Below the pieces are notes generated by a model. That model searched no databases and had not been told where the DNA came from. It saw only the letters and a program-made list of their open reading frames with translations. 64,000 nt of DNA from Procambarus clarkii (taxonomy: Eukaryota; Arthropoda; Malacostraca; Decapoda; Cambaridae), in the NCBI RefSeq assembly GCF_040958095.1, contig NC_091193.1:20390163-20454162 (forward strand). The letters run 5' to 3'. Of the stretch, positions 2,029-51,867 are shown piece after piece. Position numbers and translations under genes: made by a program. Position 1 is the first letter of the stretch. Each line of letters begins with the position of its first letter.

Positions 2029-2142
2029 TGAGGATGACATACATTCTGGGCTCGCCCATATATATATATTCAGTCAGAGAGGAGATGCCTCAGTGTGGTG
2101 GCAGCGTCTAGGGTGTTCACACCTGCACACTATCCTGGGAAG
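2029..2142 (+). promoter_or_regulatory. Gene 1 core promoter and non-coding first exon
   Basis: TGAGGATG (2029-2036) lies about 28 bp upstream of a TATA stretch (2057-2069). An arthropod-type initiator TCAGT (2090-2094) follows at the usual spacing. The sequence after it aligns with the 5' exons of genes 2 and 3 and ends at a good donor, AAG|GTCAGT (exon end 2142). The matching acceptor sits immediately before the gene 1 ATG. The start site is inferred from motif spacing and conservation between paralogues; no transcript was seen. Confidence 0.7.
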
Positions 2143-2307
2143 GTCAGTGGAGAGGCAGTGTTGTTGTGGCAGTACTATCGCCTATCTGGGCGGGTAACCC
2201 AACACTGTGCAAAGTAAATATTGTCACAGTTTGGCGAGTTGCTTGGTCTGGGCCCCCCCCCCCCCCCCCGCAGGTGTTCGATGTGAGTGGGTTATACTTG
2301 CGGCTCT

Positions 2308-2338
2308 GGTGTCAAGGATCATATTGATCCTTGACACC
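2308..2338. repeat. Perfect 14-bp hairpin followed by a T tract
   Basis: GGTGTCAAGGATCA and its exact complement flank TAT, followed by a run of six Ts. It lies in gene 1's first intron. A (C)18 tract sits upstream at 2252-2269. The function is unknown. Confidence 0.8.
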
Positions 2339-2872
2339 TGTTTTTTATTATAAAACTGGAACAGGCTCTTATTCAAGTCCAATGATGTTTGGTGTTTGTA
2401 TAGGTGACGTGTGTCAACACATTCCAGGGGCCTATAGTAAACTTAGTATATATATATATAGTGATAACTGGAGTATACGTCTCGATGTATATATCTTTTG
2501 ATTGGGTTGTCTGGCATAGGGGGGGTTACATAACATGGGGATTAGATGCTAGGGAGTTACATAACATATGGGGTAACATGGCATGATTGCTACATACTAT
2601 ATAATAGGGGTTACTGTTATGGTGTGGCTATTTATGGAGTCTTTAAATTCGATATATTAGTTGAAAACATATAGTAATTTTCAGTTACAACAAAAACTAT
2701 AGTATGACGATGATAGACACAGATTTAACTGGGGACTATATTTAACTATATTTAATTTAATTTTTAACTTAAATATAGTCTATATTTATTTAAATATAGA
2801 CTATATTTAACTGGGGTAAAGAGGAGAAAAGATAATTTGTTGTACAATTTAAGGACATTCTGGTGTACACAG

Positions 2873-3057
2873 ATGCGAGCACTGAGCGTGTTGATGGCCG
2901 GGGCGGTTCTCCTGACCCGGGCCGGGGCAGAGGACATCCTAATGGACATAGGTCCTGAAGAAGTCCTGCAGGACACGGCGTTCTACAGCCTAGACCCCTC
3001 GCTTGCTGACGACGGGGAGCTCGTCGGCATCTCCAGCGCCGACGGATTACTCTACCA
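2873..3057 (+). CDS. Gene 1 coding exon 1 (signal peptide and acidic spacer)
   Basis: The acceptor ..TACACAG ends directly before the ATG and the donor is CA|GTAAGT (phase 2). The spacer is rich in D and E and shares the pattern FY..DP..D.E.VGI....LY with gene 2. Confidence 0.85.
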
Positions 3058-3913
3058 GTAAGTCATCAGGAGGTGTTCTAGTGAATGAGTCAGGTTACCT
3101 ACCTTGAGGTGCTTCCGGGGCTTAGCGTCCCCGCGGCCCGGTCGTCGACCAGGCCTCCTGATTATAAAACTGAGTTGATTGAGGTGCGAGTCGACGAGTC
3201 GTCGACGATACTTATGACGCACTCTCATTAATAAGCACACGCGGCTGTAGCAAAACCGGTGTTTACTTATATAATAGTGTTGCTACTTGAAATTGAAATT
3301 GAAATAAGTTTATTGAGGTATAATACACACGAAGGGATGAGATAGCTCAAGCTATTCTCACCCCGTTCAGTACATCGTGTTAATATATACATAGACACAC
3401 ATCACAAACAATAAACATATTACCGAACATTCTGAGAGATAAACATATACATTTCCTCCTTTACACTACTTGAAGTTTATATTGCGTGTCATTTTCTGTT
3501 ATAAGGGACTTACTTACAAGATGTTTGAGTTGTTAAAGTGGTTTATGCTTTAGTCGTCAAACTTTCATGGGCTTAAAACATGAAATTTTTTAATAACATC
3601 TCAAAACCAATTTTCTCGCAATACCGTTTTTTTTCTGTAAAAATACATGATTCGTACATTTTTAAATATAAAAACGTGTTTGAAACTAACATTTCAAAAC
3701 CATTTTCGTTCTCAAATCGGTATCTTTTCTGTTTAAAATGCTCAGTGTGTGTCCATTTCAGCGTACAGTCACGTATGTACACTAGTGGCTTGTGGAGAAC
3801 TTGGGCGTGATGCCGAGACTTCTCTCACTGTGGAAGTCTTAGATGAGGCACCCGCGGTGCACTGATATTCTCCGGCACACAGGGACCACAATCGGTAACC
3901 ATGCTTCAGGTTA

Positions 3914-3976
<63 letters not shown>

Positions 3977-5624
3977 TGGAATAGTGAGGGAATAGCTAAC
4001 CAGGAACCACTGGAAGAGTTTGAGATTACCAGTGGGGAAGTAAGGAAGTGTTTACTAGAGTTGGACGTGACGAAGGCTATAGGCCCAGATGGAATCTCCC
4101 CTTGGGTTCTAAAGGAAGGAGCAAGAGAACTGAGCCTACCACTCTCCATAGTGTATAACAAATCACTGGCAACAGGGGAACTGCCAGATATTTGGAAAGC
4201 AGCTAACGTAGTCCCGATATACAAGAAAGGGGATAGACAGGAGGCACTGAACTACAGGCCAGTGTCCCTAACCTGCATACCATGCAAGCTGATGGAGAAG
4301 ATTGTGCGAAAAAAACTAGTGGAGCATCTGGAGCGAAGGAACTTTGTAACACAGCATCAACATGGGTTCAGGGATGGCAGGTCCTGCCTCACAGGGTTAC
4401 TTGAATTCTACGACCAGGCAACAAAAATAAGGCAAGAAAGAGAAGGGTGGGCAGACTGCATATTTTTGGATTGTCAGAAAGCCTTTGATACAGTGCCACA
4501 CAAGAGGCTAGTGCGAAAGTTGGAGATGCAGGCTGGAGTGAGAGGGAAGGTACTCCGGTGGATAGAGGAATACCTAAGCAACAGGAGACAACGAGTCTGT
4601 GTGAGGGGTGAGGTCTCAGATTGGCGAGACGTCACAAGTGGAGTCCCGCAGGGGTCAGTCCTTGGACCTATACTGTTTCTGGTATATGTAAATGATCTCC
4701 CAGAGGGTATAGATTCGTTCCTCTCAATGTTTGCCGACGATGCAAAAATTATGAGGAGGATTGAAACAGAGGATGATAGTAGGAGGCTACAAGATGACCT
4801 GGATAGACTGAGTGAATGGTCCAACAAATGGCTGTTGAAGTTCAACCCGAGTAAATGCAAAGTAATGAAACTAGGCAGTGGAAACAGGAGGCCAGGCACA
4901 GGATACAGAATAGGAGATGAAGTACTTAATGAAACAGACAGAGAGAAAGATCTAGGAGTTGATATCACACCAAACCTGTCTCCTGAAGCCCACATAAAGA
5001 GAATAACGTCTGCGGCATATGCGAGGCTGGCTAACATCAGAACGGCGTTCAGGAACCTGTGTAAGGAATCATTCAGAATCTTGTACACCACATATGTAAG
5101 ACCAATCCTGGAGTATGCGGCCCCAGCATGGAGCCCGTACCTTGTCAAGCACAAGACGAAGCTGGAAAAAGTCCAAAGGTATGCTACTAGACTAGTCCCA
5201 GAACTAAGAGGCATGAGTTATGAGGAAAGGCTGCGGGAAATGCACCTCACGACACTGGAAGACAGAAGAGTAAGGGGGGACATGATCACAACCTACAAAA
5301 TCCTCAGGGGAATCGACCGGGTAAACAAGGATGACCTTTTCAACACTGGTGGGACGCGAACAAGGGGACACAGGTGGAAGCTGAGTACCCAAATGAGCCA
5401 CAGAGACGTTAGAAAGAACTTTTTCAGTGTCAGAGTAGTTAGCAAATGGAATGCATTAGGAAGTGATGTGGTGGAGGCTGACTCCATTCACAGTTTCAAA
5501 TGTAGATATGATAGAGCCCAATAGGCTCAGGAATCTGTACACCAGTTGATTGACGGTTGAGAGGCGGGACCAAAGAGCCAGAGCTCAACCCCCGCAAGCA
5601 CAATTAGGTGAGCAATTAGGTGAG

Positions 5625-7300: not shown

Positions 7301-10300
7301 TCCTGCTCCACTATCCATGGGCCAGATTCACGAAAGCACTTACACAAGCACTTACGAACCTGGACATCTTTTCTCAATCTTTTGGCGGATTTATTTCCAA
7401 TTATTAAACAGTTAATGAGCTCCGAAGAACCAGGAGGCTGTTTATAACAATAACAACAGTTGATTGGTAAGTTCTCATGCTTGTAAACTGTTTAATAAAT
7501 GTAACCAAAGCCGTCAAAGATCGAGGAAAGATGTACACGTTCGTACAGAGAAGTCTCCCTAGCCTGCTGACCCCTGGTACAGTCCACAAGTACCAACACT
7601 AGCAAATGTCACACACTCCAATATAGAGTACAGAAATAAACATGACTAACTCAAAGTTAATCACAAGACTCTGGAACATACACAGATGTTCACTACACCC
7701 AAAAATATAGAACATGAATAATATTATCATACATATAAAACACATATGAAACAAGGGGGGAAGAGGGTGGGGGTTATGACGGCAGCACGTCAGCCGGTCT
7801 AAACAAACAGTTAACCCTTACTAACAATACATCATAATATATCATATTCACAAATAATATTAGACAGTAACATTCAGGAACATACACGTGTAAATAAGGA
7901 CATTTTAATATGAATGGCCAAAAGTCAATTGGCACACAATGGAAATAAAAGTACATTGAGAGTAGAGAATGGCCACAGCGTATCCAGTCGTAACTGGTAT
8001 AACCTGGGTCATGACAACACATGCTCGTCAGGGGCCTGGCGGCTGAGTGGACAACGCTCGGGGTTCGTAAGCCTAAGGGTCTGGGTTCGATCAAAGGCAG
8101 AGGCGGAAACAAACGGGCATAGTTTCTTTCACCCTGATGCCCCTGTTGATCTAGCAGCAAATAGGTACCTGAGAATTAGACAGCTGCTACGGGCTGTTTC
8201 CTGTGTGTGTGTGTGAAACAAATAATGTTTCAAATATAAATGATAACTTTACTTAGCTGGACTAACAGTGCATTACGATGTTCATAACATAGTGATCTTA
8301 GGGACGTAATATAAGGATTAATCTCTTGAGTCACACTTGACTTACGAAAGGCTGCAACACTTGCCTTTGAAATTAAGAATCTAAACTATAAGAATGTCTG
8401 TTTAAAGTTGGAGGCCATATGCTTGAGGCTAGCCTCGCCCAATTTTGCAGGGGTATGGTCTGGGGTCCGGGACGAACATAGGCTGGTTACGGTAGGACTA
8501 CATTAAATGCTTTAAAAAGTATTATCATTTGTAAATAGACACCCCCTCCCCTCTCCACCCAAAATGCAATTTTCATTACGTCGAGTATAAAATATTTAGC
8601 CCGATTCCTATAGAGTTTCTGTGATGACAATATTTTTTTCACGTAGTTAGCTTTTTTTGACACACTGTACTCCACTTCACATAGTGTAGGGTAGCTGCAC
8701 AAATGCAGATGTACCTCATGTATTAATAAAAAAAAATCTGAGACCATACGATTATTTCAGTGCTTTTTAATAATTCATTTTCTGAGGAGTTGGAAGAGGG
8801 GGGTGGGGGGGGGGAAGAGAGGAAGGGGAACCAAGGGGAACCAAGGGGATGTAGACGTGTGTCAAGGGGGAGATGGGGCGAAGACTGGGGTAGTGGGGTA
8901 AACGGTAGAAAGAGGAAGAGACCCGGATGTAGCCGGGTGCACCTTCTATAGCTATAAATGGAAATGGATGTTCAAGGTTGGAGATGGTAAAGAGGTGCAG
9001 GAGATATAGCGAGGGGGGGGAGGGGAGGGAGACGGGCGGGTGGGGGAGATGGAAGGGGAGAGGAGATGGTGGGAAAGGGGGGATGAGAGGGAAGAGCAGG
9101 GAAGGTGTGGGGAGATGGGAAAGAAGAAAGTTGGAATGGGGAGAGAGAGAGACTGTCCTGGGCACCGCGAAGTAACCCCCACCCCCCACCCCCCACCCTC
9201 CACCCCCCTCCGCGAGGTTAATAATCAGAAAAAATATATTTATATTTAATCATTATTAAATAAGTATGAAAATTAATATGAACACTGGAATAATTTTCCA
9301 CGCGCGGTGTTGATTTTTAAGAAGGGCGATAGATCACTTGCCACGAACTTAGCGTGTCCAATTAGCTTAGTGTTTATTGTTTTAAAATCGCTGCAGTCGT
9401 TATGCGTTAAAGATATTTACTTACACCTTGAAAAACATAGATTAATGAAGGATTCAATGCACGATTTTACTAAAGGCCGCTTGGCATAAACAAATTTACT
9501 CTCATCCATGTCCAGCATACTCCAAGCAATTGACAACGGAAAGTATTGCGACAATCTCTATCTTGACTTTTAGCAAGGTCTTTGACACCTCTTGAGAGAT
9601 ACAATAACAAGAGCCCCGTGGCATTAATGAGGAGTTCCTAAGGCTGCTCTGTTTCCTAGCTTCTGCTCGTAGACAAACACGTGGCTTTATCAGTCTTAGA
9701 GTTCCTCAGACGGCGTCCACCTCTGGCCTCCAAGCATCACACAGTTCTACTATGTCTCTCATAACACATCATAGGTAACTTAGAGAGCACATGTGACACC
9801 ACCTTCACGGCCTCATGTTAGTCTTTATTCTTGACCTTCCAGCCGGCACAGTCACGAGAATATCGGAGGATATCCAAAACAAGGCGGCTACCCAGGACAT
9901 GGTGGTTATCCAGGACATGGTGGCTATCCAGGACAAGGAGGCTACCCAGTAGGGGGAGGCTACCCAGGACAAGGTGGCTACCCAGTTGGGGGAGGCTACC
10001 CAGTTGGGGGAGGCTACCCAGTTGGAGGAGGCTACCCAGGTGGGGGAATCTACCCAGGACACAGCGGCTGTAAGTATCATTCTGATGTATGACTTTTATA
10101 CATGATACAATATTTTGTATAACAAATATCATTTAAAAAGTCATTACTTACATTGAACTGAACATTGAGCTTTTAATTTGTCAAATTTAAACAAAATTTG
10201 TGTATTGCAGTTAATTAACAAAATAAATAAAAACAAATTATTCATAAATGACCGTACATTTATAATTTAGTTATCTGACACAAACTTATATAGCACGTGG

Positions 10301-10714: not shown

Positions 10715-12215
10715 TAGTTAGTAAATGGAATGCATTAGGAAGTGATGTGGTGGAGGCTGACTCCATACACAGTTTCAAATGTAGATATGATAGAGCCCAA
10801 TAGGCTCAGGAATCTGTACACCAGTTGATTGACGGTTGAGAGGCGGGACCAAAGAGCCAGAGCTCAACCCCCGCAAGCACAATTAGGTGAGTACACACAC
10901 ACACACACACACACACCATGAAGTAATGAAATTAGGTGAAGGGAGTAGGAGGCTGAACACAATGTACCATCTGGGAGGTGAAATCCTGCAAAAGTTGAAA
11001 GATCTGGGGGTTGATATCACACCGAACCTGTCCCCAGAAGCCCACTTCAAAAGGATATCATCAGCGGCATATGCTAGATTGACCAACATAAGCACTGCCT
11101 TTAGAAACTTGTGTAAGGAATCGTTCAGAACCTTGTATACCACTTATGTCAGACCAATCCTGGAGTATGCAGTTCCAACCTGGAGTCCATACCCAGTTAA
11201 ACACAAGACAAAGTTAGAGAAGATTCAGAGGTATTCCACCAGACTAGTCCCGGAACTGAGAGGTATGAGCTACGAGGAAAGGCTAAGGGAGCTAAAGAAC
11301 GTCCCTGGAAGACAGAAGAGTAAGGGGAGACATGATAACTCCTACAAAATTCTCAGGGGAATTGACATGGATGGAACACGAACAAGGGGACACAGGTGGA
11401 AGCTGAGTACCCAAATGAGCCAGAGAAACATTAGAACGAATTTCTTCAGTGTCAAAGTAGTTAACAAATGGAATGCATTAGGCAGTGATGTGGCGGAGGC
11501 TGACTCCATACAGTTTCAAATGTGGATTTGATAGAGCCCAATAAGCTCCAGAATCTGTACACCAGTTGACTGACAGTTGAGAGGCGGGACCAAAGAGCCA
11601 AAGCTCAACCCCTGCAACCGCAACTCGGTAAGTACAACTAGGTGAGTACACACACTAAAATCTGATTCATACGTTCTCATAAAATGAAGTTACATAATAT
11701 TCTCAGTGGCGGACGAGAGCCTTCACACTCTGATATCATTTATAGCAAGTATTTATGTACATAATACATATAAATATCCATTCTCACACTATTGGAACCG
11801 AACTTCGGTATGTCTTATGCTCTAAGACACTGATCTTAAAGTGATACTTAATTTTTACATTCAGAAATCACAATAGTGTGATGCAGCAAATGAACAAATC
11901 TACACGGGCCGTGACGAGGTTTCGAACCCTCGTCACAGCCCCTTGAGGATTTGTTCTTTAGACTTAATCTTCCTTCAACCATCTACCCCCAAGATGTTTA
12001 CAAGTTATGCAATGTTTCATTTTGTTTCAGCACACGAATCATTTATTCGTCCCGGCCTTTGTCCACCCAGTCCGGCCTATTGCCAGCCCTACGGCTACCA
12101 TCGCCAGCTGCCGTGTAGATACGACGGCGAATGCTACAGTCCCGGGTACAGGTGTTGCTTTGATAACTGCGTACGGCAAAGGGTGTGTAAACGCACCATA
12201 CCTTACAGCGGCTAG
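2873..12215 (+). CDS. Gene 1: crustin with Gly-rich region and WAP domain, no 4-Cys region (spliced, 198 aa)
   Basis: Secreted antimicrobial protein of the crustin/WAP family. Coding exons are 2873-3057, 9843-10069 and 12031-12215, joined in phases 2 and 1, and the total is 198 codons plus stop. Residues 1-19 form a signal peptide (MRALSVLMAGAVLLTRAGA), and 20-62 an acidic spacer also present in gene 2. Residues about 69-136 are GGYPGHGGYPG-type repeats. The WAP domain has cysteines at 148, 155, 166, 172, 179, 180, 184 and 190, the full eight-Cys core. The Gly-rich exon joins the WAP exon directly, without the C-x3-C-x8-CC block of genes 4 and 5; such proteins have been called type VI crustins. 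The start was chosen because a splice acceptor ends exactly at the ATG. The second coding intron (6.8 kb) has been enlarged by LINE and SINE insertions. WAP proteins can bind bacteria or inhibit proteases; which applies here is unknown. Confidence 0.87.
3100..3158 (-). repeat. SINE 3' tail fragment
   Basis: The sequence GCTTAGCGTCCCCGCGGCCC and the following CGACCAGGCCTCC match, inverted, the tail of the SINE at 10301-10567. It lies just inside gene 1's second intron. Confidence 0.65.
3284..3470. repeat. Interspersed retroelement-tail repeat, (TTGAAA)n end
   Basis: Starts with a TTGAAATTGAAATTGAAAT tail and continues TTTATTGAGGTATAATACAC, GGGATGAGATAGCTCAAGC, CACCCCGTTCAGTACATCG. A close second copy lies at about 25458-25640. 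The simple tail suggests a non-LTR retroelement 3' end. Confidence 0.7.
3917..3974. repeat. (AC)n microsatellite abutting the LINE 5' truncation
   Basis: A pure AC run that joins the truncated LINE without any intervening sequence. The LINE frame reads straight back into it as His-Thr repeats. Confidence 0.95.
3975..5524 (+). CDS. LINE reverse transcriptase ORF, 5'-truncated but open
   Basis: A non-LTR retrotransposon polymerase (CR1/Jockey-like). The frame is open from the (AC)n junction to the stop at 5522-5524, about 516 codons. RT motifs appear in order: GPDGISPWVLK, VVPIYKKGD with NYRPVSLT, QHGFRDGRSC, FLDCQKAFDTVPH, SGVPQGSVLGPILF, then FADDAK carrying the catalytic Asp pair, and WSNKWLLKFNPSKCKVMKLG. 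The usual C-terminal block follows, ending in VVSKWNALGSDVVEADSIHS. The N-terminal endonuclease and ORF1 are absent, so the copy cannot move by itself, but the open frame indicates a recent insertion. It sits inside gene 1's second coding intron. Confidence 0.9.
5525..5650 (+). mobile_element. LINE 3' UTR with GGTGAG repeats running into (AC)n
   Basis: The sequence CCAGTTGATTGACGGTTGAG, then AGAGCCAGAGCTCAACCCCC, then repeated ATTAGGTGAG leads directly into an (AC)n array at 5625-5650. The same 3' end marks copies at 7141-7212, 10801-10916, 11530-11650, 14570-14670 (minus) and 24170-24270. Confidence 0.85.
5751..5835. repeat. Foldback repeat with B-box-like core, copy 1
   Basis: Perfect 17-bp inverted arms (GAACAAATCCACAAGGG and its complement) enclose GGTTCGAATCC, a pol III B-box-like word. 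A related copy is at 11892-11956 and a fragment at about 48530-48556. Confidence 0.75.
6168..6244. repeat. Half-unit of the 178-321 palindrome
   Basis: Reads ACTTGAGAATGGTCC, AGGACGGACTGAAACGTCG, then the GTGTGTGGTCTGGTCAACT block, matching one arm of the palindrome near the window start. The rest of 5840-6860 is AT-rich intron with no recognisable coding sequence. Confidence 0.75.
6871..6922. repeat. (AC)n microsatellite
   Basis: Pure AC run directly upstream of the tRNA-Thr-like SINE. Confidence 0.95.
6925..7135 (+). mobile_element. tRNA-Thr-derived SINE with an intact cloverleaf head
   Basis: The head (6929-6999) folds as a tRNA: acceptor stem GCCTCGT with ACGAGGC, anticodon stem CAGGA with TTCTG around loop CTCGTAA (anticodon CGT, Thr), and T stem GCGGG with CCCGC around TTCGATT. 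It continues without a gap into the shared SINE body (ATGGGCAAAGTTTCTTTCAC, CCCTGTTACCTAGCAGTAAA, GCTGCTTCCTGGGG) and ends in TG repeats and an A run. Other copies are at about 8031-8218, 10301-10567 and, inverted, 48226-48472. The body makes a free-standing tRNA gene unlikely. Confidence 0.85.
7141..7212 (+). mobile_element. LINE 3'-end fragment
   Basis: Carries the GTTGATTGACAGTTGAGAGG and AAAGCTCAACCCCCGC blocks of the LINE 3' UTR, then joins (AC)n. Confidence 0.8.
7213..7297. repeat. (AC)n microsatellite
   Basis: Long pure AC run following a LINE 3' end. The next 700 bases (7298-8030) contain nothing I recognise. Confidence 0.95.
8031..8218 (+). mobile_element. tRNA-derived SINE, diverged copy
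   Basis: Has the same body as the 6925 copy (AGTTTCTTTCACCCTGATGC, CAGCTGCTACGGGCTG) with a tRNA-like head containing GGCTGAGTGGACAACGC and a B box GGGTTCGATC. It ends in (TG)n. Confidence 0.8.
8400..9232 (-). repeat. Interspersed repeat with long purine/pyrimidine-skewed tract
   Basis: The + strand at 8795-9160 is almost all A and G, and 9175-9210 is C-rich. Nearby words (GGAGGCCATATGCTTGAGGC; ACACACTGTACTCC) match, inverted or direct, other copies near 33.85-34.18, 41.5-42.14, 42.77-43.3 and 36.1-36.48 kb. ORFs here are compositional artefacts. Confidence 0.55.
9300..9760 (+). mobile_element. LINE reverse transcriptase fragment, decayed
   Basis: One frame reads IFKKGDRSLATN, CPISLVFIVLKSLQS, LEKHRLMKDSMHDFTKGR. 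This is the N-terminal part of a CR1-like RT (compare VPIYKKGD...NYRPVSLT in the copy at 3975). Stops and frameshifts follow (a SRKVFDTS-like block near 9570). Confidence 0.7.
9843..10069 (+). CDS. Gene 1 coding exon 2 (Gly-Tyr-Pro repeats)
   Basis: The acceptor CCTTCCAG and donor GGCT|GTAAGT hold 75 whole codons, phase 2 in and phase 1 out. Repeats of GGYPGHGGYPG, GGGYPV and similar are encoded by about 24-36-bp DNA repeats, so length variation between alleles is likely. Confidence 0.87.
10301..10567 (+). mobile_element. tRNA-derived SINE, longest copy with tail
   Basis: The head contains AGCTGGGTGGACAGCG and B box GGGTTCGATCCC. It has the common body and then a tail GGAGGCCTGGTCGAGGACCG with GACGCTAAGCCCCGAAATC. 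The tail identifies the isolated fragment at 3100-3158. Confidence 0.8.
10648..10710. repeat. (AC)n microsatellite
   Basis: AC run directly joined to a LINE 3' fragment. Confidence 0.95.
10711..11655 (+). mobile_element. Two LINE 3' fragments joined through (AC)n
   Basis: 10711-10892 is the last part of the LINE ORF (VSKWNALGSDVVEADSIHS) and its 3' UTR. After an (AC)n run (10893-10916) a second, more diverged copy begins in the RT C-terminal region (LGVDITPNLSPEAH, LYTTYVRPILEYA, RLVPELRGMSYEERL) and runs to its own 3' UTR near 11650. The second copy has lost residues relative to the 3975 copy and is probably inactive. Confidence 0.85.
11892..11956. repeat. Foldback repeat, copy 2
   Basis: GAACAAATC arms as at 5751, with an inner perfect hairpin GTGACGAGG / CCTCGTCAC around TTTCGAAC. 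It lies in gene 1's last intron, 75 bp before the WAP exon. Confidence 0.7.
12031..12215 (+). CDS. Gene 1 coding exon 3 (WAP domain)
   Basis: The acceptor TTTGTTTCAG brings in phase 1. The exon encodes HESFIRPGLCPPSP, then YCQPYGYHRQLPC, ECYSPGYRCCFDNC, VRQRVC and the stop. All eight WAP cysteines are present with usual spacing. Confidence 0.9.
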
Positions 12216-13969: not shown

Positions 13970-14079
13970 TGAGGATGACCCCAGCTGAGCTGGGCATATA
14001 TATACCCGAGCTCCGACAAGATCCCTCAGTGTACCGGCGTCGATCTGAAGGTCAACACCTAGGCACTTTCTTTGTTAAG
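13970..14079 (+). promoter_or_regulatory. Gene 2 core promoter and non-coding first exon
   Basis: TGAGGATG (13970-13977), TATA (13996-14004) and TCAGT initiator (14026-14030) are spaced as in gene 1. The transcribed part (GTCAACACCT...) ends at TTAAG|GTCTGT, aligned with genes 1 and 3. A second possible donor, GAAG|GTCAAC, lies at about 14050. Confidence 0.7.

Positions 14080-14509: not shown

Positions 14510-14567
<58 letters not shown>
14441..14567. repeat. (TG)n microsatellite
   Basis: Long TG run with two CTGTG interruptions, flanking an inverted LINE copy in gene 2's first intron. Confidence 0.95.
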
Positions 14568-14569
<2 letters not shown>

Positions 14570-14570
<1 letters not shown>

Positions 14571-15223
14571 CACCTAATTGTACTCACCTAATTGTGCTTG
14601 CGGGGGTTGAGCTCTGGCTCTTTGGTCCCGCCTCTCAACCGTCAATCAACTGGTGTACAGATTCCTGAGCCTATTGGGCTCTATCATATCTACATTTGAA
14701 ACTGTGAATGGAGTCAGCCTCCACCACATCACTTCCTAATGCATTCCATTTGCTAACTACTCTGACACTGAAAAAGTTCTTTCTAACGTCTCTGTGGCTC
14801 ATTTGGGTACTCAGCTTCCACCTGTGTCCCCTTGTTCGCGTCCCACCAGTGTTGAAAAGTTCATCCTTGTTTACCCGGTCGATTCCCCTGAGGATTTTGT
14901 AGGTTGTGATCATGTCCCCCCTTACTCTTCTGTCTTCCAGTGTCGTGAGGTGCATTTCCCGCAGCCTTTCCTCATAACTCATGCCTCTTAGTTCTGGGAC
15001 TAGTCTAGTAGCATACCTTTGGACTTTTTCCAGCTTCGTCTTGTGCTTGACAAGGTACGGGCTCCATGCTGGGGCCGCATACTCCAGGATTGGTCTTACA
15101 TATGTGGTGTACAAGATTCTGAATGATTCCTTACACAGGTTCCTGAACGCCGTTCTGATGTTAGCCAGCCTCGCATATGCCGCAGACGTTATTCTCTTTA
15201 TGTGGGCTTCAGGAGACAGGTTC
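14570..15223 (-). mobile_element. LINE 3' copy, inverted
   Basis: The minus strand carries the C-terminal third of the RT ORF (NLSPEAHIKRITSAAYARL through RVVSKWNALGSDV) and the 3' UTR, nearly identical to the copy at 3975-5632. It is bounded on both sides by (TG)n, the complement of the (AC)n that bounds the plus copies. The frame is still open, so it is recent. Confidence 0.9.
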
Positions 15224-15778: not shown

Positions 15779-15957
15779 ATGCGAACTTTGGTGTTGGTGG
15801 CCGGGGCGGTGCTCGTGGCCCAGGCCAGGGCTGACCTCATAGTGGAGACAGCCTCCGGGGAGGTCGGGCAGGGCACGACCTTCTACAAGCAGGACCCGCT
15901 ACTTGTTCAAGATGTGGAGTTCGTCGGCATCCCCAGTTTAAATCCCGTATTGTATCA
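15779..15957 (+). CDS. Gene 2 coding exon 1 (signal peptide and acidic spacer)
   Basis: Acceptor ATTTGCAG before the ATG, donor CA|GTAAGT, phase 2. The hydrophobic core LVLVAGAVLVA is clear. Confidence 0.8.
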
Positions 15958-16022: not shown

Positions 16023-17202
16023 TTCTACCACAGACGTGGCCACACATTTACAATGCTAACCAGCATATATACATTTTCTTCTGTCCTCCATGGACAGGGT
16101 TAGAGAAGTGTTAAACATATAGTTCAAGGGTTTATTGAACACTTAACCACAGAAGGTGATTCGGTGCTTTTAAAATGCTAAGCTAACCTACATACGTAAA
16201 TACATAGATACACAGATTTACGTATGCCCTACATAAAGTGTTTGATGTGTCTTTTACATAGTGTCATTAATGTACATTCACAAAGGTGAAATGTAATTCT
16301 GATCAGCTTCCATATATACTTTATACCCATACATATACATACACACACACACATATACATACATATATACACACACACATGCATTCACATACATTTGTCT
16401 CATTTACTCTGACAGGGTGAGGTGGCTGATAAAGAAACTAGTGTGCAATTAAGCACTTAATCACTGAAGATGATGAAGGTGCTTTTACAAGCTCAGGTTA
16501 TATAGTTACATCATATATATACATTGTATGATTGATATATTACATGGGGACATGGATAAATTGGCAGTACTAGGTGGCTTCTAGTAGTTTAGGCTGTATT
16601 ACTGCCATCTATTGCCCCAATTAATCGTCGGGGTACTGCAGGAATTGATTGGTTCATATTTGGAAAGGTTAGAAGCATATGGATCTGCACTTCTGAGATT
16701 GTCTTAACAAGTGAATGAATATCTTCACTGTGAGTTGGCAGGTTTGTCTAAATCACGTGTCACAAGCTTTACATTACTTGTGGTTCATTCTACGAATGAA
16801 CCACAAGTAATGTGAATGCATATTGCTAAAACTAACATTATTCACTTTTCCTCCTCAACCTGCAGCAACCCAGGGGGCGTCAACATCAACCTCCTCCCAG
16901 CGGGAGGATACCCAGGAGGATACCCAGGAAGATACCCAGGAGCATACCCAGGAGCATACCCAGGGGGACGATACCCAGGAGGAGGCTACCCGACTAGACC
17001 TATACAAGGACAAATTAGCGGCCAATACCCAACAAGGCCAATAGGGGGCGGATATTACCCAAGGCCAATAAACACCGGCTATCCATCAACACCAATTCAC
17101 GGCAACGTTGGCCATTTTCCATCACACGGTGGCCAATCAGTGATAGGCAACTATCCAGGACTCCCCGGTCACGTACATGGTGGTGGCTACCCGATCGGAT
17201 AG
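15779..17202 (+). CDS. Gene 2: crustin-derived secreted Gly-rich protein, WAP lost (spliced, 171 aa)
   Basis: Coding exons are 15779-15957 and 16866-17202, joined in phase 2. Residues 1-18 form a signal peptide (MRTLVLVAGAVLVAQARA). Residues 19-60 are an acidic spacer homologous to gene 1, then come GGYPGGYPGRYPGAYPG repeats and a longer tail with TRPI, GQYPTRP and HGNVGHFPSH. A TAG stop falls 14 bp before a preserved ancestral donor (GGCT|GTAAGT at 17217), so if that splice is used the WAP exon is not in frame. The downstream WAP exon is itself decayed. The product could still be a secreted glycine-rich peptide with its own activity, or the locus could be a pseudogene; the intact signal peptide and 171 open codons favour the first. 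The non-coding 5' exon splices to an acceptor directly before the ATG, as in gene 1. Confidence 0.72.
16866..17202 (+). CDS. Gene 2 coding exon 2 (Gly-rich, ends in stop)
   Basis: Acceptor CTGCAG, phase 2, open for 111 codons to the TAG. The repeats differ from gene 1 (YPGGYPGRYPGAYPG) and the C-terminal half is less repetitive. Confidence 0.75.
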
Positions 17203-17389
17203 ACTACCCGGCGGCTGTAAGTTTTCAATCTGGCTGTGGCTATTGTGCATGACCTTCTTGCTTGCAACCTTCCTACTCTAATATTCTTTGAAAGCCTGAA
17301 GTTGTATGTATGTATGTTGTTCATGGCCAATATATATACAATTTATACAGGTAGGACAGCCGTTATCAAACACAATATATATCTATAAG

Positions 17390-18705
17390 AGAGGATGTGT
17401 GTGTGTGTGTTCACCAAGGTTGGTAGCCCGACACTTGAGGCTAGTCTTACCTATCCTTGCAAGATGAATGGTAGAGGAAGAACACACTGTTAGTCCCATT
17501 CAGAAGGCAGCTAGTTGATGACACCGTGCTCTCCTTCGAGTAGTCTAGGGTACATGCACATTACTACGGGCTCACCATAGCCCGTGCTACTTGGAACTTT
17601 TTGTTCCAGGTAGGGAATCTTTAACAACAACAACAACAACCTGCACAAATGCGCATGTTCCTAAGCGTTAAGATAAAAAAAAATAGTGGGAAGAGGTGAG
17701 AGAGAATGTTAGGAGAGAAATGTGACACAGATGGGTGTTGTGGGAGAAAGGTGGAGATGGGATGAGAGAGAGACACCCGGGCACCCGTCTCAGTATACTT
17801 AAAAAAACGGGTATACTTAGACATTCTGAATAGTGAGCTACCAATTTACCTTTGCATTTACAACACGGGGTTCCAAATGCGAGAAGATACATGTAGACCA
17901 AGAGGTTTTACACCAGGAATCATTTAGTGCGGGCCTTAAGCCTCTGGCTGGCCGGCAATATTTTAATAATTGTTATCTCACTGAGGCGGCGGATGAGTAT
18001 TGTTTTCATATGTTGGCTTCAGTAAGATTATTTCCAAAGTGTTTAACAACTTCTGTGCTCTTAGATCTCCGTTGAAATCTTATTTGGTTTGTAACTGCAC
18101 ACTGTGTTATGTTGCGGTGGTCTGTAGGCCTTTCTCCACAACGCTAACATTTCCTCCCTTCTTCTGACACCAGTAAGCCTCTTCCCCATGCACATGGGTA
18201 ACCGAGAGGTGTACCCCCTCGGTTTATATATATACGACTCATTATCTGTATACTGTATACTTATTATATGTATACTTTAGTATACAGATAATGGCTCCAA
18301 AGAGCCTCCACTTACGGACTCACCATAGCCCGTGCTACTGGACCTTCATGTTCTGAGTAGCTGAATCTAAAACAGCAACAACATATACTTTAGTCAGCTA
18401 TATTCAGACATAATTTGTATATGCTGGTTGGTCAGTATGCTCTTATGGCTGTCTTAATAACTTTCCAGAAGTTGATAGGCCTTGAAAATGCCAGCAGGCT
18501 TTCTGTCCCAGACAATATGAAATCATCAAATTGGGTGGATCTTCAACAAGCCTCCGGCTTCCTGTCCTCGTCGAGGCCATAGTATTAGTGGCACTCAGGT
18601 TGTTTTAAATTTAGCTACTCAGATCAAAATGTCCATGTAGCACGGGTTATAGTGAGCCGGTAAGGTTCTCAGGTAAACTCAGGTAAATATATATTAAACG
18701 TATTA
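17390..18705. repeat. Gene 2 former last intron: three copies of a GGGCTCACCATAGCCC repeat and others
   Basis: A hairpin-bearing interspersed repeat (ACGGGCT / AGCCCGT arms; TTCCAAGTAGCACGGGC on one strand) occurs at about 17555-17640, 18310-18385 and 18600-18690. Other copies are at about 21659-21740, 22218-22290, 42505-42600 and 44760-44845. 18530-18600 matches the post-gene-3 sequence at 28800-28880. No coding sequence is recognised. Confidence 0.6.
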
Positions 18706-18720: not shown

Positions 18721-18900
18721 GTGGATGCTATCGTGGCTTGTGCCCGTCCTCTGGCCACCATCGTCAGCTGCCGTGGGATAAGGTCAACTGCTCAGCCCTG
18801 GACACAAGTGGTGCTATGATCAATACATGAGACAAGAGTGTATAGGTCCAGCACACAGTGGAGCCAGCGAGGCAGAGCCAACACTCTTGTGCTCTCGCTC
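18721..18900 (+). pseudogene. Decayed WAP exon of gene 2
   Basis: After a good acceptor (TTTTGATTAG) the phase-1 frame reads GLCPSSGHHRQLPWDK, clearly related to gene 1's GLCPPSP...YGYHRQLPC. It then frameshifts near 18800 and hits TGA at 18828. The shifted frame reads HKWCYDQYMRQEC and AHSG, matching gene 1's YRCCFDNCVRQRVC...YSG. At least four of the eight cysteines are lost (C2 region deleted, C3 to Trp, C5 to Trp, C7 to Tyr), so no disulfide core can form. The sequence after it aligns with gene 1's 3' UTR, supporting tandem duplication. Confidence 0.8.
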
Positions 18901-19429
18901 CTTCACCAGCCCCTTGCGCACCGCACCACACGGCTTCCCACATGCACCGCCGACCCTTACCAACCTTGCAGCTTTTGTAGTTCAGATTTTCTCTAAACTT
19001 TGAATAGTGGCCACGTTTACTTGATAATATTTACTTCTCAACAGCCACTTTCAGTCAACTGATTGTCCCAGAGGTGCCAGCAAACATAGGTATATGGTCA
19101 ATTTAATTTGATTTTCCAAGGCGCTGACTTTTTCTTTCATCATGTGTTGGGAAGTATGTTTAGAGCTGATGCAGTGGTTCCCACACTGCTGACGGAGGTT
19201 ATCCCGCTTGTCTTGGTTCCTCTAATATTCATATTCCATACCCCAATTGTTATATTTATATTTAATAACAAGTTATTACTTGTAATCTACAAATTTATGT
19301 GCTCTATTTATTAAAAGTTGTTTTATATCACAATTTTAAAGACTTTATTGTTATTTGATAAACCATATGAAAAGTCCGTTATTTTGAACAATTCCAAATG
19401 CTCCTGAATTAATCCGTAATTCACAGAGG

Positions 19430-32913: not shown

Positions 32914-32917
<4 letters not shown>

Positions 32918-33580: not shown

Positions 33581-33714
33581 GCTGTAATTCATCACAAAAT
33601 AAAAATGTGTATATATATTTAACAAAGTAATACTAAACAGTTTTAAACCTTTAAAAATCTCTTTTAGTATAGATTTTCTGTGATTATAGTATAGATTTTT
33701 CTAGAGGCTGAGAG

Positions 33715-34574: not shown

Positions 34575-35274
34575 TTCCACAGGCCCCGCAGTTATCTCCA
34601 GTCAGTCTTCAACTCTGCTCAAGGTCTCCAAGTGGCTTCCCACATAGGCGGCAGACCCATCAACGGCATTAAGCCAAACTCTAGAGAGCGACCCATCTAC
34701 GGTGTCAGGCCACACTCTGGAGAAATTCCCAGCTACGGTGTTTTGGGAGCCTCCGACAGCTGTAGGTACTGGTGTAGGACTCCAGAGAATACATTCTACT
34801 GTTGCGACTCTTCCACAGTGCGTACTTCCACGTTTAGACCAGGTGGGTGGTGCTTTGTATTCAGAACAAGTCTGAAGAGTTTTGGTCCGTGACAGATTAT
34901 TTTGAGATCAACTTTTAAGTTTTCCACGCTAGAAAATTCTATGTAATCAGTATATATTCCAACACTATTTTCCAAATCATTTAAATTCTTCTTCTGGTCT
35001 CTCTTTTTGAAGTTCTTATTTTAGGTGTTCGTTCACCTATTCTCTCTATATATATAGTTTTCAATTTTCCAAATTAAAAGTACAACATTCCTTGTCTGCA
35101 GCTCGCGTTGGGTGCTGTCCTCCGGTGCGCCCAGACTGTCCAAGGACGTATTACCCGCAGGCTCCAGTAACCTGCGTCCACGACTCCTCCTGCAGCAACA
35201 CCTCTGACAAGTGTTGCTACGACAGATGTCTGGAACAACACGTGTGTAAACCTTCCCAGCCCTGTTCAGGGTAA
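33715..35274 (+). CDS. Gene 4: complete crustin with 4-Cys region and WAP domain (spliced, 175 aa)
   Basis: Coding exons 33715-33809, 34583-34842 and 35102-35274 join in phases 2 and 1, giving 175 residues. Residues 1-19 or 1-20 form a signal peptide (MKMLTCLTAGLVMIVGSLAQ). Residues 33-90 are a linker with three loose GVRPHSGE / GIKPNSRE-type repeats instead of a GGYPG array. The crustin Cys-rich block is C92-x3-C96-x8-C105-C106. The WAP domain has cysteines at 124, 131, 143, 149, 156, 157, 161 and 167. Two further cysteines, 123 and 173, flank the core and could form an extra bond (inference). It is closest to type I/II crustins, secreted antibacterial proteins of haemocytes. A (TA)n array ends 11 bases before the second acceptor, which is unusual and could affect splicing. 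AATAAA at 35634-35639 is a good poly(A) signal. Confidence 0.9.
33845..34190. repeat. Pyrimidine-rich interspersed repeat in gene 4 intron
   Basis: A C/T-rich block (33890-33945), then AACTCTATGGGAAACACACC, then ATGGCCTCCAACCTCGGAC. Similar series occur at 41500-41900, 41930-42140 and 42770-43300. Confidence 0.6.
34502..34571. repeat. (AT)n microsatellite ending at a splice acceptor
   Basis: The run stops only 11 bases before the AG at 34581-34582, so it occupies the place of the polypyrimidine tract of gene 4's second coding exon. Confidence 0.95.
34583..34842 (+). CDS. Gene 4 coding exon 2 (linker and 4-Cys region)
   Basis: Acceptor TTTCCACAG, phase 2 in. Donor CCAG|GTGGGT, phase 1 out. 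Encodes SDSCRYWCRTPENTFYCC, the crustin cysteine signature. Confidence 0.87.
35102..35274 (+). CDS. Gene 4 coding exon 3 (WAP domain)
   Basis: Acceptor CTTGTCTGCAG, phase 1. Encodes VGCCPPVRPDCP, APVTCVHDSSC, DKCCYDRCLEQHVC and a final PCSG before TAA. Confidence 0.9.
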
Positions 35275-46076: not shown

Positions 46077-46099
<23 letters not shown>

Positions 46100-46980
46100 G
46101 TTTCATTGAATATGACCGCATATTCTGTATTTATTATTTTCTGGTTTAGGGCTTCTATCCCTCTAACTATTTTCTTAGCATCAGGGCTTAATTGGAATAG
46201 GAGTTCTCCAAAACTCATTTTCGTACTTTTAAGGTGAAGAAAAGAAGTGATTTACTATAGAGTGTATTACACTTATTTGTATAATTTGCACGACGTTTCG
46301 AACCTCCATGGTTCATTCTCAAGTGAACAGATCTTACAAAACTAGTTGATTTTATACCCGCATTAGGTCAGGTGATAATACAATGAAGGTGAAAAACATG
46401 GGGGGATACATAAGGGATAAACATAGGGGCTGCAGAAGGCGTATTGGCCCATACGAGGCATCTCCTATCTAAACACAAAGATTAATCCAGTGTAATTGGC
46501 CTGTTATGTTGGACATTGTCTTCTGTGTTGGCATCGATATGTTCTTGTCTTGTCCTTACTCTCATGGTGGGTAGAGTAAATAGTTCCGTGATTTGGGTGT
46601 TCATGGTAGGTCGCTCTATTCTTATGTGAATTGCCTCAAGAATTTGTAATCTTCTTGAATCTTGGGTTTTGTCTATTATGCAAGTATTCTTGTTCAACAT
46701 TTCTCTTGTTAGAGTAATGTCATGGGCTTGTCTCATGTGATTCCTAGGGGCACCAGATTGAAGATGGCATGTCAAACGCCTCGTCAGCTTGGTCGACGTC
46801 ATACCTATGTACTTACATTGAAGGTTACATCCTTCGTGGGGGCAAGTGTACATGCATACAACGCTTGACTGCTGTAGAGGGTTCTCCGTCGGCTTCGGGC
46901 TGTTTTTGATAAGGAGTTCGGAAGTCTTCTTGGTAGAAGAGTGTAATACACTCTATAGTAAATCACTTCTTTTCTTCACC
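46077..46980 (-). mobile_element. Penelope-like element with leader and GIY-YIG endonuclease end
   Basis: The minus strand has an N-terminal coding fragment (46100-46218, [17 protein letters not shown]) and leader (46219-46340). It also has a separate open frame (46482-46853) encoding CPHEGCNLQCKYIGMTSTKL with HLQSGAPRNHMRQAHD. This matches the GIY-YIG endonuclease of Penelope-like retroelements, including the YIG and downstream Arg/His region. The RT core is missing, so this is a rearranged remnant. Confidence 0.8.
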
Positions 46981-46994
46981 TTAAAAGTACGAAA

Positions 46995-47145
46995 ATGAGT
47001 TTTGGAGAACTCCTATTCCAATTAAGCCCTGATGCTAAGAAAATAGTTAGAGGGATAGAAGCCCTAAACCAGAAAATAATAAATACAGAATATGCGGTCA
47101 TATTCAATGAAACATGTTTGAAAGAAAACCTGCTGCCAGTATACA

Positions 47146-47150
<5 letters not shown>
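46995..47150 (+). mobile_element. Penelope-like 5' coding fragment, inverted neighbour
   Basis: Encodes [17 protein letters not shown] through [13 protein letters not shown], then breaks directly into (AT)n (47150-47215). Together with 46077-46980 it forms a divergent head-to-head pair sharing the leader TTTACTATAGAGTGTATTAC. Confidence 0.8.
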
Positions 47151-47220
<70 letters not shown>

Positions 47221-47950: not shown

Positions 47951-48096
47951 TGTATATAGAGCGGTGAGACAAGGGAGATGTGTCAGTTAGACGGGGAAGC
48001 TTACACTAAGCACAGGTTGTAGCTGCGCTCAACAGCATACCTATTGTAGTCAATACAACTCCTGCTCTACAACTGTCTTCAACAAAATCTATCAAG
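47951..48096 (+). promoter_or_regulatory. Gene 5 core promoter and non-coding first exon
   Basis: TATATAGAG (47953) lies about 32 bp upstream of TCAGT (47983-47987). The exon ends ATCAAG|GTAAAT at 48096, and the acceptor TTGTTGCAG (49199) lies 3 bases before the gene 5 ATG. It is less similar to genes 1-3 (no TGAGGAYG), but the layout of TATA, TCAGT, short 5' exon and ATG-adjacent acceptor is the same. Confidence 0.65.
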
Positions 48097-48591: not shown

Positions 48592-48775
48592 ACCACATAC
48601 CCATCCTGTAGGCGGTGGTGGACCTCATACCCATCCCGTGGGCGGTGGTGAACCCCATACCCATCCCATGGGCGGTGGTGGATCCCATACCCACCCCGTG
48701 ACCAGTGGTGGAACCCATACCCATCCCGTGGGCGGTGGTGGATCTCATACCCATCCTGTAGGCGGTAGTGGTATG
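48592..48775. repeat. 30-bp tandem repeat, about 6 copies, reading His-Thr-His-Pro-Val-Gly-rich
   Basis: Unit near CATACCCATCCCGTGGGCGG + TGGTGGATCC. In the + strand frame it reads HTHPVGGGGS repeatedly, without stops. A splice-acceptor-like TTCGTATTTCAG lies just upstream, but TAG follows in that frame at once. A GTATGT donor-like word follows the array. Confidence 0.8.
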
Positions 48776-49202
48776 TGGTCCCACTCACATACTATTAATT
48801 TTTCTTTATAAAATGCAGTCTTATTTCATTATACTCAAAATCTTAATGTATCAGTATGCCATGTTTTCTGATCGACACAGGAGAAAGGGTTGGTACTTAG
48901 TATCAACTTGAGAATACTGTAATATAAAAATTAAAATAGAATTAATGCCTTGATGGAAGCTGACGCTGTATTGACTGAGTTGGAAGGTATATAAGAGGAA
49001 GAATTCTGCGCTGCTTTTCACGAATATACCAGTTATTTTCAGGAGTAACCGACTTTTTTTAAGATTTAGTTTTTTCCACTACATAAAGCCTGTAGGGAAT
49101 ACATTATGCCAATTATATATTCGCTCCAAACTCTCATTAACCTAATGAGAGTTTGTGCTACTCTCATTTCAAATTCATTTTGCATTTTACTTGTTGCAGA
49201 CA

Positions 49203-49824
49203 ATGGCCAACGTGAGGCTTCTCCTATGTGTCTCCTATGTGTTAGGAGTCAGTCTTGGATCCCCCGCCATCTCCCCGGAAACTGTCGATAACTCTACTGC
49301 AAAGATAAACACCATTCTGAACACCTCGCAAACAGAAAGAACTTTGCTCACTTCGGAAGCTTCGGCCGATGCTCAGAACTCAACTGTGCCTGAGCCTGAG
49401 GACAGATTGGAGGACGGGTTGCCGAGCAAGTCGGCTTTACCCGACGATATAGAAGAGAATGGAACAGATCGCACATTGAGCTCGGGAGGTAACGGGTTTG
49501 GTAGATATGGATCTGCAGGAGGCCTCCAGGATGTGCCTAACGACCTCTTCCCGGGACCTTTAAGCCCTCAGGAACCCTTAGGGCCACCGGGTCACGTCGG
49601 CCCGCCAGAGCTTCTTGGTTCTTCGGGTCTTCTGGGCCCCGTAGATTATCAGAATCCACTGAACTCTCCAAGTCTTTTAGGTCCACCAAAGCCCTTGGGA
49701 CTTCTGGAATCTCCAGTTCCGACCCAGAAAACCTTTATACCCGGCCAAGGCTATTCCAAGTACAATACGGGGTGTAAACACTACTGCCCTGGCTTTACTC
49801 CTGGATCCTTCTACTGCTGCAACC
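49203..49824 (+). CDS. Gene 5 coding exon 1 (signal, arm, 4-Cys region)
   Basis: Ends CTGCAACC|GTGAGT in phase 1 after the CKHYCPGFTPGSFYCC block. Confidence 0.87.
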
Positions 49825-51729
49825 GTGAGTAGAATTTATCACTTATCTTTATATTTATCGACTTTGCATTCCACATCTTTCATGATATTTTCATTCCTCA
49901 CTATTTATTATCCAAATTCAACAGTTGCATCGCTGATTGCCCCTTTCTACTGTTATATTTTTCAGATAGTCCCTACAATTTTACCATCACTGCTCACTAT
50001 ATTTAAGAAATATTACATGTTAACTCCATTCATCTTTCTCTGCTGCATTCAACATTTCTACACCTCAACCTGTAGCTTTCCCAATATGCAAAATGCATAG
50101 TAAATGTGCAGTGGTCACAAAGATAGTTGAAGGTTTGTTCAGGAGTGTGAGATAGTTTGATAAATGTGTGTTAGGTATTGATGGTGGAAAGAGAAGGAAA
50201 ATCATTCTGCCCTAAACTGTGTGAAATTGTGTTTATGGAGAAGTGCTGAAAGTTGTTAATGAATTTCACTGGGGTATGTGATGCCTTTTGATAATTATAT
50301 TACATTATCTGAGTTGTGGGATGAACGAAAGAGGAATTTGTAGAAGCAAAGTTGAAAATAGAATGAGTTAAGAAAGTGGCTGGTGCTGTGAAGCCTTGGT
50401 TAAGAAGAGTAAGATAGAATTATCAACAGCCCTATGTATAGGAGCACGAACACAGTGTTACATCAGTTGAGATAGACAGTCTGAGGTGTGTATGTACTCA
50501 CCTAGTTGTACTCACCTAGTTGTGTCTGCAGGATCGAGCATTGACTCTTGGATCCCACCTTTCGAGCATCGGTTGTTTACAGCAATGACTCCTGTCCCAT
50601 TTCCCTATCATACCTGGTTTTAAAATTATGAATAGTATTTGCTTCCACAACCTGTTCCTGAAGTATGTGTGTGTGTGTGTGTATGTGGTTTTAGAATCGA
50701 TAGAATAAATACAACCAATATTATAAGAGTCTGCAAATTGTAAGTTTAAAAGGTGTCTAAATGGTTTGGTCATGTTAAACAAATGAATGATGATAGAAAG
50801 GCGAAATAATCTTTAAGTTCAGATGCAAGGAAAGTCAAGAACAGAAGCCAAAAATTAGTTTGTGTAGAATTGTAGTTTAAGTGCAAACAATTAAGGTGAA
50901 GTGGACTAGAAAAAATCTAAGTGGAAGCAGTGTACTAAGAGGAAAAGGAAACATTTTTGCAAATGACGACTTATGAGGAGCATTTGTTGAGGATAATTTG
51001 GAAGTGTGTGGTACTCCTGGTTATCGTGTGTATCATAAATAACGAGGTTTGGCGAATACCGGGAATCTTTTTTTATATAAATATATTTAACAATATTGTC
51101 TTGTATTACCCATGCATCATGTCCAAGCAAATACATCCCTATCTCATGTAAGTATGATTGAAGGGTAATGATGATGGTGATCTCCACAATTGCAAGTCTC
51201 CCTCTGCATATGTCTCAACACGTTCATAAATATGACATAATTACTGTATATACTTTCTGTAGAGATGTTGTTCAAGATACTCAAGCACGACTGCCCCAAT
51301 GCCCCTTTCTCAATTGATAAAATATTTCTAAAATGAATAAACATATCTTGGCATATTTTGATACACAACACAAACTACTGTACCACTTGCATGAAGTCAT
51401 TGAACTATTGATCCTGCAACTGTCATGTGGTTAATCAAATATTTGAGGCTCTTAACTGTATGGAATATTGTCAGTTAAGGTGTATACCACAAGATAGACA
51501 TTCATTATTTCTCTATTTGCTAGGAAGTAAAATTATTATTATTCCTACAGAAGCCCCCTCATTAGGACGACCGGTCTGTCCACCACTGAGAGAGTCGTGT
51601 CCTGATACTTTTCGTCACAGTTCTGTACGATTCTGCATAGAGGACAGAGGATGCCAAGCCGACGAGAAGTGTTGTCTGGATGTTTGCATCCAGCGCCATG
51701 TCTGTAAATCTGCAGACTGGCTGAGGTGA
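49203..51729 (+). CDS. Gene 5: crustin with long Ser/Thr-acidic and Pro/Leu-rich arm (spliced, 266 aa)
   Basis: Coding exons 49203-49824 and 51551-51729 join in phase 1. The signal peptide is residues 1-19 (MANVRLLLCVSYVLGVSLG). Residues 20-105 are Ser/Thr- and acid-rich with several N-glycosylation sequons (NST, NTS, NST). Residues about 112-180 carry Pro/Leu/Gly repeats (LGPPGHVGPP, LLGPPKPLGLL). The Cys-rich block is C191-x3-C195-x9-C205-C206. The WAP cysteines are 217, 224, 236, 242, 248, 249, 253 and 259. Only 10 residues separate CC from the WAP, against 16-17 in gene 4. Signal, arm and Cys block share one exon, so the phase-2 intron of genes 1-4 is absent. It resembles the Ser/Leu-rich crustins sometimes called type VII, but the arm is long. 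The ATG was chosen because it follows the acceptor and begins a clean signal; an in-frame upstream Met lies in the intron. Confidence 0.87.
50493..50665 (-). mobile_element. LINE 3'-end fragment, diverged
   Basis: GTACTCACCTAGTTGTACTC is the inverted 3' end of the LINE family. GCTTCCACAACCTGTTCCTG recalls its end-of-ORF region. It lies in gene 5's last intron. The rest of 49825-51550 contains nothing I recognise. Confidence 0.55.
51551..51729 (+). CDS. Gene 5 coding exon 2 (WAP domain)
   Basis: Acceptor ATTCCTACAG, phase 1. Encodes RPVCPPLRESC, RFCIEDRGC, EKCCLDVC, RHVC and stop; eight canonical WAP cysteines. Confidence 0.9.
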
Positions 51730-51861
51730 ATCCAGTAGTTCTCCCTAACCAACACAACACAACTAATCATTAGGTCTTAGATAATTAGGGGATAATTATA
51801 ATTATCCACCTACCTTCTCTTATATATATATATACTGTATTATGTATTATATGTATTATGA

Positions 51862-51867
51862 AATAAA
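51862..51867 (+). terminator. Gene 5 polyadenylation signal
   Basis: AATAAA 133 bp after the stop, after an AT-rich 3' UTR. Confidence 0.6.

Follow-up and report, generated by a model that had tools for sequence, protein, structure and literature searches.

The crayfish Procambarus clarkii carries five neighbouring genes with crustin-like features within 64 kb of NC_091193.1, and they raise the question of how their different middle modules arose: by exchange of exons, as an earlier sequence-only reading had proposed, or by duplication followed by divergence and loss. This 64-kb stretch is the window to which all coordinates refer, and the gene models are coding exons with GT/AG ends read from the sequence. 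Genes 1 to 5 are all on the forward strand and span 2.06 to 51.87 kb; their signal and middle exons are open, as are the WAP exons of genes 1, 4 and 5, and each of the five predicted proteins begins with a hydrophobic, signal-like stretch (judged by eye). The data are better explained by duplication, turnover of repeats and WAP-exon loss than by a stepwise replacement of modules. The best explanation, with a probability of roughly 0.65, is a tandem crustin-family cluster in which genes 2 and 3 are gene-1-like duplicates that shed the WAP domain and would now be stand-alone genes for secreted glycine-rich peptides. The three complete genes form an ordinary crustin cluster, and the other two are an instructive case of domain loss.

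Gene 1 (195 amino acids) has three coding exons: a signal-peptide exon with an acidic segment (2873–3057, ending in phase 2), an exon with a GGYPG array (9852–10069, ending in phase 1) and a WAP exon that includes the stop codon (12031–12215), with AATAAA at 12768. Gene 2 (171 amino acids) has two, a signal-peptide exon (15779–15957, phase 2 end) and a glycine-rich exon (16866–17202), as does gene 3 (76 amino acids), with a short signal-peptide exon (28116–28186, phase 2 end) and a GGRPGGIH exon (28462–28621). An acidic stretch of about 40 residues, resembling a pro-segment, follows the signal peptide in genes 1 (2930–3057) and 2 (15833–15957) and is lacking in gene 3; the first 28 residues of gene 2 give a weak Pfam match to Defensin_propep (E 0.02, below cut-off). 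When 18 module queries were compared with the window by nhmmer, genes 1–3 were connected in promoter, signal exon and glycine exon. The signal exon of gene 2 matches that of gene 1 at E 1.1e-18, and the glycine exons are homologous, at E 3.1e-5 for gene 3 and 6.1e-4 for gene 2, each against gene 1. Flanks of the glycine exons were compared with 1000 window places, a sample from which the loci themselves were not removed: on the donor side all three pairs match, the scores of 1-2, 1-3 and 2-3 being reached by 0, 5 and 1 places, and on the acceptor side the 2-3 match is reached by 2, with no excess for 1-2 and 1-3 (193 and 330 places). Given this homology of promoter, signal exon, glycine exon and flanks, genes 1–3 are tandem duplicates. 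Between genes 1 and 2 the five modules compared are each 67–73% identical, whether intact or decayed, and the duplication is therefore old.

Inside the middle exons the tandem repeats have different periods: 18 bp and multiples of it in gene 1, 12 in gene 2, 24 in gene 3 and 36 in gene 4. The array of gene 3 comprises 3.2 copies with 100% matches, and the GGYPG array of gene 1 is 45.2% glycine. Tandem arrays evolve as units are gained, lost or spread. Together with the homologous flanks, such turnover explains the difference between GGYPG and GGRPGGIH without exon exchange, and the two are best read as diverged repeats within one inherited exon, where unit turnover would have driven the arrays apart.

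At the end of the glycine exon, gene 2 stops at TAG (17200–17202), 14 nucleotides 5' of a preserved donor, GGCT/GTAAGT. Further on, a relic at 18732–19370 matches the WAP exon and 3' untranslated region (UTR) of gene 1 (nhmmer E 8.5e-22), the decayed WAP exon occupying about 18732–18860 and the homologue of the gene 1 3' UTR following it. Relative to gene 1, the decayed exon shows gaps of 1, 2, 1 and 3 nucleotides, the loss of seven codons, altered cysteine codons (TGT to TGG, TGC to TAC) and a stop in each of the three frames. Gene 3 ends in TAA (28619–28621), which is followed by a second in-frame stop, TAG at 28649–28651, and its donor is dead, reading GGCT/TTAAGT (TT at 28664) where gene 1 has GGCT/GTAAGT. 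The TAG of gene 2 and the second in-frame TAG of gene 3 may be a single inherited stop, which the alignment permits, but their frames to the donor differ. A WAP relic of gene 3 was sought in 28690–33700 and not found, with scores of 26 and 27 against 23–32 in six control stretches; 3' UTR queries scored slightly above controls in the same region (59 against 34–49 for that of gene 1, 50 against 40–47 for that of gene 2). The score of 59 belongs to a weak match at 33292–33400, in the first intron of gene 4 (nhmmer E 0.009, for one of the 18 queries), which may be a stray remnant or a shared repeat.

As predicted from these models, genes 2 and 3 encode a signal peptide and a glycine-rich region only. 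Crustins carry a WAP domain at the C-terminus (PMC7017220, PMC8951635; the papers cited here are represented by abstracts and passages), and the eight-cysteine domain in question is present in genes 1, 4 and 5 and absent from genes 2 and 3, both of which end in the glycine exon. The sequence-only reading was therefore right to see a crustin locus, but its five members include only three with WAP; it had overlooked the stops in the glycine exons and the lack of a usable WAP exon in genes 2 and 3, and also that in gene 5 signal and middle module are not separated by an intron. The order of events would have been tandem duplication of a gene-1-like ancestor and then a stop near the end of the glycine exon, after which the unread WAP exon may have decayed in gene 2 and disappeared along with the splice donor in gene 3.

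TATA, initiator, signal exon, glycine exon and coding-join sites are intact in both genes 2 and 3. The gaps between the signal exons of genes 1 and 2 (6, 3, 3 and 6 nucleotides) are all in threes, unlike those in the gene 2 WAP relic, and gene 3 has AATAAA at 28790, 169 nucleotides past its stop. The ratio of nonsynonymous to synonymous substitution (dN/dS) is 0.55 over 59 codons. These features argue against the closest rival, in which genes 2 and 3 would be pseudogenes, dead crustins without a working product; it is doubtful but has to be taken seriously. In its favour, and so against working peptides, stand the decayed WAP exon and the stops, the signal exon of gene 2, which is conserved no better than dead DNA, and a Fisher p of 0.066. 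Gene 2 also has no AATAAA in 17202–18700 or 18850–19500, where only ATTAAA occurs (18693 and 19310). Loss of WAP may itself abolish activity: CshFc of Fenneropenaeus chinensis, a form without WAP like genes 2 and 3, is described, in a comparison with a crustin, as having almost no antibacterial activity (PMC8626000). The glycine-rich region of SpCrus2 is reported to be active alone (PMC8537896). Working WAP-less peptides are ranked above pseudogenes, though not strongly; if transcribed and secreted, they may have an antimicrobial or binding action.

A separate candidate TATA/initiator promoter is present for every gene, together with a short non-coding exon 1 that would be spliced to an exon starting at or just before the ATG. 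Candidate core promoter and exon 1 together lie at 2059–2142 in gene 1 (TATA 2059, TCAGT 2090, AAG/GT at 2142), 13997–14079 in gene 2 (TATA 13997, TCAGT 14026), 26009–26090 in gene 3 (TATA 26009, TCAGT 26038), 32234–32324 in gene 4 (TATAAA 32234, TCACT 32265) and 47953–48096 in gene 5 (TATATA 47953, TCAGT 47983). Two AAGGT sites are present in gene 2 (14050, 14079) and in gene 3 (26062, 26090), the second being chosen as donor in both, in gene 2 because it is aligned with the donor of gene 1. An AG stands immediately 5' of the ATG in genes 1–4 and 3 nucleotides 5' of it in gene 5; if these sites are used, the 5' UTR must therefore begin on a separate exon. For promoter plus exon 1, the scores of pairs 1-2, 1-3 and 2-3 are each reached by 0/200 shuffles and 0/372–376 window places, and nhmmer links the three genes at E 7.5e-6 to 1e-20. 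For the seven pairs that include gene 4 or 5, nhmmer reports nothing at E up to 0.5, and between 22 and 108 of 200 shuffles equal the score; in the best pair, 3-5, 22/200 shuffles and 18/371 window places do so. A homologous first exon common to all five same-strand genes, as the sequence-only reading had it, is thus seen in genes 1–3 only, and found no support for genes 4 and 5 from either shuffles or nhmmer.

What the five do have in common is a layout, namely TATA, TCA[GC]T 29–31 bp on, and AAGGT within 125 bp. The full layout is found on the forward strand at the five genes only and on the reverse strand at 1 place, with 0.075 sites per strand in 40 simulations. Without AAGGT, the TATA-initiator pair gives 6 rows on the forward strand (two of them gene 1) and 6 on the reverse, with 0.5 simulated; being equally frequent on both strands, it is only the added AAGGT that separates them. 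This layout and the four-cysteine and WAP spacing patterns used below were devised post hoc, from genes already seen, and express rarity, not independent prediction. Upstream of the five genes, kB, GATA and C/EBP consensus patterns showed nothing common to all.

Gene 4 (175 amino acids) consists of a signal-peptide exon (33715–33809, phase 2 end), an exon with a linker, itself a degenerate 36-bp repeat, and a four-cysteine motif (34583–34842, phase 1 end), and a WAP exon including the stop (35102–35274), with AATAAA at 35634. In gene 5 (266 amino acids) signal peptide, Ser/Pro/Leu arm and four-cysteine motif share a single exon uninterrupted by an intron (49203–49824, phase 1 end), and the WAP exon, again with the stop, lies at 51551–51729, with AATAAA at 51862. 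The contents of the middle exons (GGYPG, GGRPGGIH, linker plus four-cysteine, Ser/Pro/Leu arm plus four-cysteine) are as first described. The signal-to-middle join is in phase 2 in genes 1–4 and the join into WAP in phase 1 in genes 1, 4 and 5, in agreement with the in-frame phase-1 join claimed for three genes; by their predicted exons, these three qualify as complete genes of crustin type whose eight-cysteine WAP exon is entered in phase 1.

A profile built from the WAP exons of genes 1, 4 and 5 and searched against six-frame segments of at least 15 amino acids places 3 segments above the inclusion threshold, these same exons. The WAP spacing pattern likewise matches genes 1, 4 and 5 only, with the eight-cysteine spacing present in all three, and the pattern C-x3-C-x(6-14)-CC has 2 six-frame matches, in genes 4 and 5. 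WAP protein identity is 44% between genes 4 and 1 and 38% between genes 4 and 5, and tblastn between the WAP proteins gives E 3.8e-7 (1-4), 8.3e-9 (4-5) and 0.025 (1-5). The list of structural matches for the gene 4 WAP exon is headed by WAP folds. Pfam gave no match for genes 1 and 4 and only E 0.022, below cut-off, for the WAP of gene 5; NCBIfam returned 0 families for 3 proteins, and viral contigs yielded 32 pattern matches, 0 of them confirmed. Against the PDB, the WAP-exon profile reached 5 sequences at E 0.21–0.22, all complement C5, which were regarded as chance.

If middle exons had been swapped while first and WAP exons stayed fixed, the frame would be kept in some cases, since genes 1 and 4 have middle exons of equal phase (2 in, 1 out). 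By nhmmer at E up to 0.5, the only match between a module of gene 4 or 5 and any other is a fragment of the gene 1 WAP on the WAP exon of gene 4 (E 0.42). The middle modules of genes 4 and 5 have no match, and exon exchange may be their source. As an account of the locus it is improbable, however: the glycine exons of genes 1–3 are homologous and their flanks match, the five genes have no fixed first exon in common, and the phase-2 intron is absent from gene 5. Genes 4 and 5 have in common with gene 1 the WAP exon and its phase-1 intron only, and with each other additionally the four-cysteine motif. No evidence was found that orders genes 1, 4 and 5 as successive steps, and, given the homology of the glycine exons, the idea of exchangeable modules in stepwise replacement finds no support.

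Still less probable is combinatorial splicing, in which the signal exon of gene 2 or 3 would skip its glycine exon and be spliced into gene 4 at its phase-2 acceptor, so that several promoters would yield chimeric crustins. Its ingredients are present, since all genes share one strand, the signal exons of genes 1–4 end in phase 2 and the middle exon of gene 4 accepts that phase, but every gene holds its own coding set through to a stop, with AATAAA 133–553 nucleotides past the stop in genes 1, 3, 4 and 5. Sequencing or assembly error is a very unlikely cause of the stops and frameshifts seen in genes 2 and 3, given several separate lesions in the gene 2 relic and, in gene 3, two in-frame stops, a dead donor and no WAP relic above controls.

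The naming of crustin types follows their modules. A narrower definition adds a cysteine-rich region to the WAP domain (PMC10363340); genes 4 and 5 have both, and gene 1, without the four-cysteine motif, would by this definition be a WAP protein and not a crustin. Gene 1 has the features that define type VI (signal, glycine-rich region, WAP, no cysteine-rich region), like the type VI crustin of Litopenaeus vannamei (PMC7401287), a likeness of layout only; genes 2 and 3 differ from it by lacking WAP. Gene 5 agrees, again in layout only, with type VII and LvCrustinVII (PMC8951635), in which signal, Ser/Leu-rich arm, cysteine-rich region and WAP follow one another. Serine and leucine make up 23.4% of its arm, as against 32.8% reported for shrimp type VII (PMC7401287), and the arm is additionally rich in proline and glycine and acidic, unlike the type VII description. 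The wording for that type varies in the passages available: PMC7401287 gives no separate cysteine-rich region, PMC8951635 gives one and once says serine/threonine-rich. Gene 4 resembles types I and II in that a four-cysteine region precedes the eight-cysteine WAP; type II has a glycine-rich region before the cysteine-rich one, whereas the linker of gene 4, with its degenerate repeat, is just 12.7% glycine and by composition is closer to type I. The repeats GG(G/V)FPGQ of Re-crustin, a type IIa crustin, resemble the GGYPG units of gene 1 (PMC7381244). If expressed, genes 1, 4 and 5 would give secreted peptides with a terminal WAP domain, type VI-like, four-cysteine plus WAP, and type VII-like, respectively.

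In exon structure, two type II genes of L. vannamei have two exons, the second holding most or all of the coding part (PMC5793079). In the type IIb gene the first exon is entirely non-coding and a single exon holds the remainder, so that such a first exon is not new; the genes described here differ from that gene in having WAP on its own exon. For crayfish, 11 and 8 putative crustins have been reported (PMC9394032). No published locus with a decayed WAP exon was found in a literature search at abstract and passage level, most subscription journals lying outside its scope.

Genes 2 and 3 resemble in kind, and by description only, the haemocyte glycine-rich peptides procambarin of Procambarus and a similar multi-copy peptide of Pacifastacus, reported in several similar copies (PMC8234337, PMC8155518). 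The Pacifastacus peptide, whose transcript is GBYW01011676.1 in PMC8234337, is reported to give no BLAST result, and a glycine-rich peptide is grouped with crustins in haemocyte clusters (PMC9391574). It is conceivable, though tentative, that stand-alone decapod glycine-rich defence peptides of the procambarin kind are crustins stripped of the WAP exon after tandem duplication. If so, the locus captures WAP loss under homologous promoters, in a complete gene of ancestral type, a copy with a fossil WAP exon and a copy with none, and offers a testable origin for orphan glycine-rich haemocyte peptides. For the origin of types VI and VII, PMC7401287 suggests deletion and substitution from type II and calls for comparative work; here three layouts and two WAP-less derivatives stand side by side, with WAP loss readable from a decayed exon. 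Part of such a locus would escape a search that looks only for the WAP domain.

The introns and intergenic DNA contain repeats and mobile elements. In the first intron of gene 5, 48592–48771 holds six copies of a 30-bp repeat, one forward frame of which reads GGGG(P/E/S)HTHPV; an in-frame TAG just 5' of it argues against a coding exon that begins at the nearest AG, and the repeat may be either a chance minisatellite or a decayed glycine-rich module. The first coding intron of gene 1 has a reverse transcriptase open reading frame (ORF) of the long interspersed nuclear element (LINE) type (3899–5521, Pfam RVT_1 E 2.1e-34), and an inverted partial copy of this LINE, 99.1% identical and recent, lies in the first intron of gene 2 (14531–15222). 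Mobile-element copies adjoining long TA runs occur at 26714–27306 and 46098–47153, with three pairs at 98.9–100% identity; they are presumably Penelope-like, and two ORFs tried gave no clear Pfam match. An ORF on the reverse strand (57836–58120) weakly matches an integrase SAM-like domain (Phage_int_SAM_5, E 4.4e-4, just under cut-off), which suggests a tyrosine-recombinase element. A dispersed repeat, its copies linked by self-comparison, has tRNA-like heads at 6929, 8031, 10306, 40975 and 48394, four of the five being called tRNA genes by ARAGORN; it is probably a short interspersed nuclear element (SINE).

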